23,226 bases of DNA from a virus. This document shows positions 20,371 to 22,723 of this stretch, in pieces. The DNA lies in IMG/VR virus record IMGVR_UViG_3300001848_000267, positions 1-23,226 of that record; one strand, 5' to 3'. A program made the translations under genes and the position numbers. Within the stretch, counting starts at the first letter, position 1. Each line of letters starts with the position of its first letter. The notes beneath the pieces are model-generated. The model was not told where the DNA came from, searched no databases, and was given only the letters and a program-made list of their open reading frames with translations.

Positions 20371-20561
20371 GCAACGCCGATCGGCAACGTCGATATCGCC
20401 AGCGTTTGGGCAGCAACGTCAATGGTCCTCCTGGTCCGGCCCCGTCAGCGCCATGCGGGACAGTGTCTGCCTACAAGCGTCATTTGCGCCATTGCGAAAC
20501 GCCATGCTCGGCGTGTCGAGCGGCGTGGGCTGCGTACCATCGCAAACGCAACGACATGTAA
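20367..20561 (+). CDS. Small zinc-finger-like actinophage protein
   Basis: A 64-residue basic protein. It opens MSNADRQRRYRQRLG, the common N-terminus of small DNA-binding phage proteins, and then has CGTVSAYKRHLRHCETPCSACRAAWAAYHRKR. This CGT...YxRHxR-x-C...PC..C layout is a widespread small family in actinobacteria and their phages, presumably holding zinc through Cys30, Cys43, Cys47 and Cys50 (and His). The role is unknown; RNA or DNA binding is plausible. GTG 20367 overlaps the previous stop (GTGA) with AAGG just before it. The stop codon TAA lies inside the first of the putative integrase arm repeats. Confidence 0.65.
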   Translation: MSNADRQRRYRQRLGSNVNGPPGPAPSAPCGTVSAYKRHLRHCETPCSACRAAWAAYHRKRNDM

Positions 20562-20577
20562 CGGCGTGTAACGGCAG
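20557..20577 (+). repeat. Left arm-type repeats of attP
   Basis: Two copies of TGTAACGGC (20557-20565 and 20567-20575) lie head to tail with a 10-bp period, so on the same face of the helix. The second copy forms part of a 13-bp stretch, CGTGTAACGGCAG (20565-20577), that is exactly repeated at 20772-20784. They are probable integrase N-terminal-domain sites. Confidence 0.65.
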
Positions 20578-20586
20578 ATCCGAAAT

Positions 20587-20598
20587 GTGGTCGACCAC
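20587..20598. repeat. 12-bp perfect palindrome GTGGTCGACCAC
   Basis: A perfect 12-bp inverted repeat sits in the left arm of attP, between the arm repeats and the tRNA core. It could bind an excisionase, a repressor or a host factor; no match elsewhere in the window was noticed. It is not preceded by recognisable promoter boxes. Confidence 0.5.
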
Positions 20599-20652
20599 CA
20601 CAACGCTGACCTGCGGTTTCGCGATCTACCGAAAGGAAAAACCCCTGAATAC

Positions 20653-20700
20653 GCGCCCTCTCAAGGTGGCGGCACGGGTTCGAATCCCGTACGGGCTGCA
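20653..20700 (+). other. attP core: 3' half of a tRNA gene
   Basis: A T-arm with perfect 5-bp stem ACGGG/CCCGT and loop TTCGAAT (20674-20690) is followed by a seven-base acceptor strand ACGGGCT and a G at the discriminator position (20698). Upstream, an anticodon arm can be drawn with loop CTCTCAA (20658-20664) on a stem of four pairs, one of them G-T. The anticodon would be CUC (Glu), although the outermost stem pair mismatches and the 5' half of a tRNA is absent. This is the part a phage carries to restore the host tRNA on integration. The tRNA identity is tentative. Confidence 0.75.
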
Positions 20701-20704
20701 ACAC

Positions 20705-20749
20705 AAAACCCCTGCTCAGAGCACATAACTGAGCGGGGGTTTTGCTTTT
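20705..20749 (+). terminator. Strong terminator after the tRNA segment
   Basis: A 15-bp stem (20705-20719 with 20729-20743, one G-U pair) with a 9-base loop, A-rich on the 5' side and ending TTTT-GC-TTTT on the 3' side, so it could work in both directions. After integration it would terminate transcription of the restored host tRNA before it runs into the integrase gene. Confidence 0.9.
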
Positions 20750-20764
20750 CCGGAGGGCGTTTCG

Positions 20765-20784
20765 TGTAACGCGTGTAACGGCAG
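20765..20784 (+). repeat. Right arm-type repeats of attP
   Basis: Two copies of TGTAACG (20765-20771 and 20774-20780) lie head to tail nine bases apart. The second belongs to the 13-bp sequence CGTGTAACGGCAG shared with the left arm. Their place just before the integrase promoter means integrase binding could also shut off its own gene. Confidence 0.65.
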
Positions 20785-20789
20785 GCCGG

Positions 20790-20818
20790 TTGACGACCAT
20801 CCAAGACGCGTGCAAACT
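20790..20818 (+). promoter_or_regulatory. Integrase promoter (leaderless type)
   Basis: TTGACG (20790-20795) and CAAACT (20813-20818) are 17 bases apart, and GTG 20826 starts seven bases after the -10, where transcription would begin. No Shine-Dalgarno sequence precedes the GTG. The -10 is weak, so the promoter assignment is tentative, but the -35 and the spacing echo the two other promoters in this region. Confidence 0.45.
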
Positions 20819-20825
20819 CGCCGCC

Positions 20826-21908
20826 GTGCACCTCCAACAACTGCCCTCGGGACGCTGGCGCGTCATCGTCCAACACGCCGGCCGGAAACGCACCGGAAGC
20901 GGAGCGACACGCATCGAGGCACAACAGGTCGGTGCCGAACTGCTCCTCGAACTGGGTGGCTCAACAAAAACTTCTGCGATGAACGTGGCCGAACTGATGG
21001 CGCAATGGTTCCTGCAAGCCGACCTGTCTGCCACCTACGAGGCCGACGCACGACGCGTCATCGAACGCCTGCCGGACGAGTTCACCGACCGACCGATCGT
21101 CGAGGTCACCCCATCGGTGATCGAGGGTCTGTACCGCCAGTTGGCTCGAGCAGGCTGGTCGGCGCATCGTGTGCGACGCCTGCACGCCGTCATGTCTTCA
21201 GCCTGGACGATGGCACGCCGCTACGAGTGGGCGGTCACCAACCCGTTCAGCGCAGCCCGAGCCCCGACACCACCGAAACGTGCGATCGCACCGCCGACCC
21301 CGGCACAGGTGTTGGAACTGTTGGACTCGGCGCCCGAACGCCTTGCGCTCTACCTCGAACTGTCTGCCGTCCTTGGTGCACGACGTGGCGAAGTCGTCGG
21401 TCTGCAATGGCAGGACATCACCGGCGACTCAATCTCGGTCCGTCGCTCCATCGCCTACAGCCCGACCACCGGGCTCGTCATCACCGACGGCAAAACCGGC
21501 GCCAAAGGCCACCGAGTCGTAGCGATCACCAACGACCTCGTCGAGGCGTTACGAGCGCACCGTGTCAACCAGGTCGAGATGGCATTGGCGGCCGGTCTAC
21601 CGGCACCCGTGTGGGTGTTTTCCCACGATGCCGGCGTCACACCGTGGAGGCCGGACTACATCAGCCGCGAGTTCCGCCGTCACCGCAAACGCGTCGGCCT
21701 CGACCAGTCGTTCCGGCTGCACGACCTGCGTCACTTCGTCGCCACGCAGCTGCTCGCCGCCGGCGTCCCGCTGAAGACCGTGTCGGAACGGCTCGGCCAC
21801 CGGCAACTGTCAACCACGTCGGACCGTTACGGCCATTGGGTGCCGGCTGCGGACAAGGCGGCGGCGGACACCATCGGCAGCATCCTTCGGCCTCGACGCG
21901 CGCAATAA
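20826..21908 (+). CDS. int: Tyrosine integrase
   Basis: Site-specific recombinase that joins phage attP to a host tRNA gene. From GTG 20826 it has 360 residues: an N-terminal arm-binding beta domain (PSGRWRVIVQHAG), a helical core-binding domain (about 50-145), then the catalytic domain. Catalytic residues are Arg186 in GARRGE, Lys223 in the beta hairpin DGKTGAKGHR, His299 and Arg302 in HDLRH, His325 in LGH and Tyr335 in DRYGHW, so the enzyme is complete. The frame is open to 20742, but this stretch holds the terminator and arm sites. TTG 20790 is the main alternative start. Its gene lies directly beside attP and the repressor, as in temperate phages. Confidence 0.95.
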   Translation: MHLQQLPSGRWRVIVQHAGRKRTGSGATRIEAQQVGAELLLELGGSTKTSAMNVAELMAQWFLQADLSATYEADARRVIERLPDEFTDRPIVEVTPSVIEGLYRQLARAGWSAHRVRRLHAVMSSAWTMARRYEWAVTNPFSAARAPTPPKRAIAPPTPAQVLELLDSAPERLALYLELSAVLGARRGEVVGLQWQDITGDSISVRRSIAYSPTTGLVITDGKTGAKGHRVVAITNDLVEALRAHRVNQVEMALAAGLPAPVWVFSHDAGVTPWRPDYISREFRRHRKRVGLDQSFRLHDLRHFVATQLLAAGVPLKTVSERLGHRQLSTTSDRYGHWVPAADKAAADTIGSILRPRRAQ

Positions 21909-21965: not shown

Positions 21966-22133
21966 GTGGACGCCGACCAGTATCGAGCAACGATGGATGC
22001 GCTGCTCAGCGAGATTTCTTCCGGCGTTGCACAGTTGGAGTGGCGGGCTCGGCTGCGGCGGCATCCAGCTGCTGGCGTACCAACTGCCGAAGTAGTGCCG
22101 CTATCTCCGTCACATCACCTTGAAGTTGGCTGA
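21966..22133 (+). CDS. Putative small protein overlapping the repressor gene
   Basis: A 55-residue frame starts at GTG 21966 with the excellent ribosome site AGGAGG (21955-21960) five bases upstream. Its start MDADQYRATMDALLSEISSGVAQLEWRARLRR looks like a genuine amphipathic helical protein, while the rest (from about residue 33) runs antisense to the repressor gene and is less protein-like. Either this is a short real gene convergent with the repressor by 128 bases, or the N-terminal remnant of a longer gene cut off by the repressor segment. The strong ribosome site argues against chance. It is not seen with any recognisable function. Confidence 0.4.
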   Translation: MDADQYRATMDALLSEISSGVAQLEWRARLRRHPAAGVPTAEVVPLSPSHHLEVG

Positions 22134-22371
22134 TCGCGTCCTCGACGCGCATCAGGCGCTCGTTGTCGGCGTCCGTTTCCAACTCAAGTTGCAGCAACTT
22201 GGCCAGTTGAGGGATGTACTTGGCTGAGGGCAGACCGTTGCCGCTTGCCCAGCGCTGAACGGCCTGAGGACGTATGCCGAGCGCATCGGCCACCATCGAC
22301 AGGTTCAGGCCGACCTCTTTGATGCGTGCGCGCAACGGTTCTCCCGACAGCGGCAAGTCCTCCATACGCAC
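22006..22371 (-). CDS. Xre-type HTH repressor, probable immunity/cI-like regulator
   Basis: A 121-residue protein with an Xre/Cro-type helix-turn-helix in residues 12-62: RIKEVGLNLSMVADALGI (helices 1-2), RPQAVQRWASG (recognition helix) and SAKYIPQLAKLL. A coiled-coil helix (about 68-102, LMRVEDAISQLQ...LLRQLVRQQL) probably makes dimers or tetramers, and the end is an Arg/Lys-rich tail. It is the only clear leftward gene here and is divergent from the excisionase operon, the normal arrangement of a temperate switch. GTG 22371 lies six bases after a TAGGCT -10 and lacks a ribosome site (leaderless); ATG 22365 is the alternative. The C-terminal part overlaps a convergent small frame. Confidence 0.8.
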   Translation of the reverse strand: MRMEDLPLSGEPLRARIKEVGLNLSMVADALGIRPQAVQRWASGNGLPSAKYIPQLAKLLQLELETDADNERLMRVEDAISQLQGDVTEIAALLRQLVRQQLDAAAAEPATPTVQRRKKSR

Positions 22372-22477: not shown

Positions 22478-22723
22478 ATGAACCAACCGAAGCAGACAGC
22501 GGCGGAGCTGCTGCAGCGGCCGGTGATGACCGTCACCGAAGTCGCTGAGTACCTCCGCCTCGAGTACAGCCGAGGTGCGAAGAAGGGCAAGCCGAAGCGC
22601 ACCCTGGTGATCGCACTCGTCGACAAAGGCGTGATCCGTCCGATCGACCCGACCGAACCGACCCACCGCTGGCGGTTCTCGCGTGCAGCCATCGACCGCT
22701 ACATCGGCGAGGTGGCCGCATGA
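22478..22723 (+). CDS. Excisionase-like wHTH protein
   Basis: An 81-residue protein. MTVTEVAEYLRLEYSRGAKKG opens a MerR/excisionase-type winged HTH (TVTEVAEYLRL, the first helix pair), continuing LVIALVDKGVIRPIDPTEPTHRWRFSRAAIDRYIGEVA, where the RWRFSRAAIDRY element is the wing and last helix typical of Xis/HTH_17 proteins. It could be the excisionase or a Cro-like early regulator; position as the first gene of the operon divergent from the repressor supports both. A stretch GAKKGKPKR extends the loop between helices and is longer than usual. ATG 22478 is leaderless; the end overlaps the next start (ATGA). Confidence 0.75.
   Translation: MNQPKQTAAELLQRPVMTVTEVAEYLRLEYSRGAKKGKPKRTLVIALVDKGVIRPIDPTEPTHRWRFSRAAIDRYIGEVAA

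Follow-up and report, generated by a model that had tools for sequence, protein, structure and literature searches.

A phage attachment site for the tRNA-Glu(CTC) gene of Ilumatobacteraceae beside the tyrosine integrase gene of an uncultured virus

The core of the mycobacteriophage L5 attachment site is the 3' half of a tRNA gene. In the cluster K1 mycobacteriophages (CrimD, Adephagia and others), the attP site comprises an RNA-gene core, two pairs of arm repeats and a terminator located between the core and P3 (PMC3203893). Cores of 30-45 bp with a tRNA 3' half are typical of mycobacteriophage tyrosine integrases, and the phages with tRNA-dependent lysogeny combine a short core of about 10 bp with a phage-encoded complementing tRNA (PMC10865867).

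We analysed a linear virus record of 23,226 bp, which is incomplete and which is called here, over its whole length, the window. Its genes follow the order terminase, portal, head and tail genes, metallophosphoesterase, attP region and tyrosine integrase, with the integrase gene (int) directly downstream of the site on the + strand (20826-21908). With very high confidence, we assign positions 20555-20818 to a complete phage attP of the lambda/L5 tyrosine-integrase type, for integration into the host tRNA-Glu(CTC) gene. This attP belongs to an uncultured bacterial virus, and its predicted target is the glutamate-tRNA gene of Ilumatobacteraceae, in which insertion would restore the tRNA. The original prediction had described, beside the integrase, a tRNA-targeting attP composed of a tRNA 3' half, a bidirectional terminator, two nested sets of direct repeats and a palindrome. 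All these elements were found in the sequence, with small corrections of coordinates. The tRNA-targeting reading itself was upheld by the search of the tRNA half against host genomes, which matched a real tRNA-Glu(CTC) gene in Acidimicrobiia over about 44 bases, and by a relative of the integrase located behind such a gene (L094). The features of the region are as follows:

20555..20577, + strand: predicted left (P) arm-type integrase sites, a tandem GTGTAACGG-like pair with 10-bp spacing (kept position, changing word, shuffles)
20587..20598, no strand assigned: 12-bp palindrome GTGGTCGACCAC, probably incidental (shuffles and relatives)
20607..20635, + strand: conserved block TGACCTGCGGTTTCGCGATCTACCGAAAG on the inner left, a candidate region for an excisionase or a host factor (kept despite differing arm words)
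20638..20647, + strand: left AAAACCCCTG copy (conserved in relatives)
20656..20699, + strand: common core, 3' part of tRNA-Glu(CTC) (identity to host genes)
20704..20744, + strand: bidirectional intrinsic terminator, including the right AAAACCCCTG copy at 20705-20714 (folding, kept in relatives)
20763..20784, + strand: predicted right (P') arm-type integrase sites, a tandem pair with 9-bp spacing (places kept in relatives)
20790..20818, + strand: promoter-like TTGACG-17-CAAACT of int (TTGAC placement in relatives)
20826..21908, + strand: tyrosine integrase, 360 aa, GTG start at 20826 (PF00589, 3e-20; phrog_1, 6e-65; N-terminal beta-beta-beta-alpha domain)
22006..22371, - strand: HTH repressor-like gene
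22478..22723, + strand: small HTH_17 (MerR/Xis-like) protein, candidate excisionase (PF12728, 1e-6)

The 41-bp block at 20658-20698, present in a single copy in the window, runs from the anticodon loop to the discriminator base of tRNA-Glu(CTC). Scanned for exact matches, the genome collection yielded this block, letter-identical, in 34 genome-contig stretches labelled as Acidimicrobiia, Ilumatobacteraceae, Acidimicrobiaceae and unspecified Actinomycetota or bacterial records, most of them Ilumatobacteraceae. ARAGORN identified a complete tRNA-Glu(ctc) at 33 of these 34 loci, usually behind tRNA-Gln(ctg), and the remaining one (L025) was a remnant copy. The identity to the host spanned 20656-20699 in 31 out of the 34; the tRNA 3' half that had been placed at 20653-20700 is thus present, with a slightly shorter extent. 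The resulting common core of 44 bp, which matches the 3' part of the host tRNA, falls within the 30-45 bp range of PMC10865867. A 46-base pattern extending beyond the tRNA into phage sequence gave no match in the genome search, since the host identity mostly ends at 20699. The core was also identical in 7 viral contigs (scan over 35 bases), and its anticodon loop, CTCTCAA (20658-20664), is the likely candidate for the strand-exchange region. When the junctions were simulated, attL (host 5' half plus phage core) was recognised as tRNA-Glu(ctc), and neither attP nor attR alone gave a tRNA; the phage part would therefore restore the tRNA gene and supply its own terminator. In two MAGs (L019/L042 and L020/L034) the contigs break at tRNA-Glu(CTC), which would be expected of a population with both occupied and empty sites.

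An attachment junction would likewise show a piece of tRNA next to an integrase, and the window, as a linear and incomplete record, might represent the end of a prophage (attL or attR) or a host-phage junction with host DNA on one side. We consider this very improbable: the 5' half of the tRNA is absent from the window, in which no tRNA gene was found (the record being incomplete), and homologous phage genes flank the core, left and right, in a shared order in the window and in four viral relatives (L003, L005, L006 and L007). These flanking phage genes identify the site as an attP, not as an attL, an attR or a junction.

Around the core of this attP we found two tandem pairs of short repeats. 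The word TGTAACGG is exact at three sites (20557, 20567 and 20774), and the fourth site, at 20765, reads TGTAACGC, so that the outer repeat set proposed previously stands for three exact copies and not for the fourth. In a 9-mer register the sites start at 20555, 20565, 20763 and 20772, all four in direct orientation, and a perfect 14-mer, GCGTGTAACGGCAG, at 20564-20577 recurs at 20771-20784. None of 300 dinucleotide shuffles had one 9-mer (with at most one mismatch) as a tandem pair both left and right of the core. Among the relatives, the distances of the repeats from the core were nearly constant (about -103/-93 on the left and +65/+74 on the right, with some extra left copies), and the word itself varied by phage: GTGTAACGG in the window and L003, GTGCGAAGT in L005, CGCGCGTAG or CGCGCGGAG in L006/L007, and GTGTGCCCG in L002. 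For L002 the automatic test detected the left pair only; its right pair, TTGTGCCGTTGTGCCG, is weaker and visible by eye.

The integrase varied together with these words. In particular, residues 1-50 of the window integrase were 42-46% identical to those of L005-L007, compared to about 66-72% in the other domains, and the N-terminal 50 residues of L003, which has the same arm words as the window, were 96% identical. The AlphaFold model of the integrase contains strands at residues 2-5, 11-17 and 20-26 and a helix at 29-42, forming a beta-beta-beta-alpha domain over residues 1-42 (pLDDT about 85). This is the shape expected of an arm-binding domain, as in lambda Int, and no arm-binding Pfam model matched the N-terminal domain. 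The tandem pairs are the predicted arm-type integrase sites, because their position is conserved while the word and the Int N-terminal domain change together. The relatives thereby separate the constant parts of the attP (core, spacing, terminator) from the exchangeable ones (arm words and Int N-terminal domain). As a tentative and rather doubtful extension, the attP group might form a fixed scaffold (core, arm positions, 10- and 9-bp spacing, placement of the terminator and the promoter), with the arm words and their matching Int N-terminal domain as its sole exchangeable parts; the result would be mutually orthogonal integrases for one attB, with the left block TGACCTGCGGTTTC as a shared host- or excision-factor site.

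Regarding the inner repeats, AAAACCCCTG is located at 20638-20647 and 20705-20714, exactly where the pair had been placed by the original prediction. A 10-mer common to both arms appeared in 4% of the shuffles; the AAAACCCCTG pair is nonetheless conserved in the relatives. In all of them the left copy, or a one-base variant of it, precedes the core by about 10-12 bp, and the right copy is an arm of the terminator, at the base of the stem. We also found TKACCTGCGGTTTCGCG in all the close relatives, whose arm words differ. For the left AAAACCCCTG copy and the block TGACCTGCGGTTTCGCG, conserved unlike the arm words, the most probable function would be that of a site for an excisionase or a host factor. 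The 12-bp palindrome GTGGTCGACCAC is present as described, and is imperfect in L003 and absent in L005-L007; any perfect 12-bp palindrome occurred in 6% of the shuffles. It is thus probably incidental, and the role in the recombination design that had been proposed for it does not hold. The nested, symmetrical design is retained for the outer arm pairs and not for the palindrome and the inner repeats as core recombination parts.

When inverted, the word TGACCTGCGGTTTC (20607-20620), which lies left of the core, corresponds to a word found behind tRNA genes (GAAACCGCAGGTCA). In 222 Ilumatobacteraceae genomes it gave 21 matches, compared to 5 for reversed-pattern controls, and in a few cases it recurs beside tRNA-Ala or arm-like repeats (L146, L151, L154, L159); as a marker of integrase-linked sites it was only partly borne out by these numbers.

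The hairpin at 20704-20744, with a 16-bp stem, a 9-nt loop and a folding energy of -28.3 kcal/mol (z -7), is preceded by an A-rich and followed by a T-rich stretch, in agreement with the bidirectional terminator that had been predicted. It lies between the core and the right arm and is kept in the relatives. A strong terminator after the tRNA fragment, together with a transcript from the left that could carry it, would also suit a fragment maintained as a tRNA-derived regulatory RNA or a decoy in the late transcript, with no part in recombination. This is extremely unlikely in our assessment: the identity begins at the anticodon loop, the fragment is flanked by arm repeats at fixed places, and relatives of the integrase adjoin a complete tRNA gene.

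In Actinomycetota, tRNA genes of many isotypes are followed, after about 12-16 bases, by the 10-base word CAGNTCAGAG (58 out of 198 genomes); when the word was reversed, the same pattern was found in none of the 198. Of 55 cases, 41 had the 3' half of the word within the 5' arm of a strong hairpin, and the word is therefore mainly a shared terminator base; its linkage to integrases was not significant (12/56 vs 2/30, p = 0.07). The phage attP has CTGCTCAGAG at the corresponding place (window 20705-20722; loci L168-L223).

Just beyond the right arm sites there is a putative int promoter, whose spacer is 17 bp long and whose weak -10 ends 7 bp before the start codon. In the window, L003, L005, L006 and L007, TTGAC is placed at +91 to +93 and the start codon at +126 to +129; the TTGAC box was not found in L094. 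This arrangement suggests a leaderless int mRNA. The right repeat pair lies immediately upstream of the conserved -35-like TTGAC, and a repressor-like gene is nearby, so the TGTAACGG repeats could be taken for repressor operators or int promoter sites. However, the core and a distance of 200 bp separate the right pair from the left one, which has the same orientation, and both pairs keep their positions in the relatives while their words change with the Int N-terminal domain. We therefore regard operators or promoter sites as a very unlikely explanation and retain the arm-type reading, under which the repeats could have an additional effect on the int promoter.

The catalytic residues of the integrase, R187, K223, H299, R302 and Y335 (R, K, H-x-x-R, Y), were invariant in alignment A1. 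No close cultured relative was found in the phage collection searched, where the best Int match had 32% identity. Among the viral relatives, L003, L004 and L008 are near-copies of each other over the attP region, and L005, L006, L007 and L002 are more distant; the window integrase groups with L005-L007 (100/99). Based on its position and family, the HTH_17 protein is a candidate excisionase.

Integrase relatives (E 1e-30 or better) were detected in 27 out of 222 Ilumatobacteraceae genomes, and most of the loci fetched immediately follow a tRNA gene (Glu, Thr, Arg, Val, Met, Lys, Leu or Gly). The integrase relatives at L094, L053, L055, L072 and L077 are directly behind tRNA-Glu(CTC). The tRNA label was strongly clustered on the integrase tree (13 changes vs 25.6 in shuffles), and, on this tree, tRNA-Glu has been adopted at least twice among these integrases. 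The closest integrated relative, L094, comprises the host tRNA-Gln, a complete tRNA-Glu, a terminator and the start of int; its integrase, cut by the contig end, is 59% identical over the first 60 residues. The prophage expected by the original prediction was thus recovered in part, as an integrase relative directly behind tRNA-Glu(CTC) in a bacterial contig, and not with both attL and attR: no such complete prophage of this phage was found, given that the L094 contig ends inside int and that the terminase relatives in the Ilumatobacteraceae genomes were distant (40% or less). Five integrase matches (L066, L067, L069, L090 and L091) have one internal stop each (TAG or TGA), which suggests decayed elements.

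In Desertimonas flava, a named species of Ilumatobacteraceae, we identified a 19,008-bp island between two core copies, the first in an intact tRNA-Glu followed by an integrase and the second a remnant. Its integrase belongs to a second clade, different from that of the window. The new integrase specificity suggested earlier therefore stands as regards a specific target, and not as an exclusive one, the same tRNA being used by a separate clade in the same bacterial family. No phage structural genes were found among ten proteins scanned in this island (L093 523-19490), which encodes caspase-domain, GHMP-kinase-like, HATPase, C-5 cytosine DNA methylase and O-methyltransferase-like proteins and is possibly a defence island.

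Taken as a mechanism, the N-terminal domain of the integrase would bind the tandem arm-type repeats and its other domains the core, with strand exchange predicted within or next to CTCTCAA of the host tRNA-Glu(CTC) gene. After such recombination, attL would carry the host 5' half joined to the phage 3' part as an intact tRNA-Glu, followed by the phage terminator, the arm sites and int, and attR would carry the tRNA 3' remnant at the other end. Integrase bound to the adjacent arm sites may control the leaderless int promoter, and the HTH_17 protein would act as the excisionase. We infer recombination at tRNA-Glu(CTC) from sequence comparison.

With these results, a phage group that lacks close cultured relatives in the phage collection we searched is firmly assigned to a host (Ilumatobacteraceae, by way of tRNA-Glu CTC), and the site offers a ready design for an integration vector. 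To our knowledge, there is no such tool for Ilumatobacteraceae.

The plan of this attP is a known one, since the sites of cluster K1, L5 and Giles have the same architecture; what is new here is that a host and a target have been assigned and that the relatives form a clear series. In contrast to the phages with tRNA-dependent lysogeny, the core is 44 bp long and rebuilds the tRNA, and there is no tRNA gene in the (incomplete) window. The Ilumatobacteraceae island integrases (Desertimonas flava and others) share the same attB with a letter-identical core, but form a separate clade with candidate GCCAATGG-like arm words and, in Desertimonas, non-phage cargo. As in the mycobacteriophages L5 and Giles (cited in PMC3203893), pairs of arm sites in direct orientation surround a core next to int, whereas L5 has several additional arm sites, another tRNA and another host. 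Finally, as in cluster K1, a small RNA gene contributes its 3' end as the core, int has the attP on its 5' side, the core is surrounded by two pairs of arm-type repeats (about 11-bp in K1), a rightward stem-loop terminator separates the core from P3, and the arm words vary among close relatives; unlike in K1, where the core is from tmRNA (24 bp) and P3/P4 are inverted, the core here is from tRNA-Glu(CTC) (44 bp), the four sites are direct and the integrases are distant.
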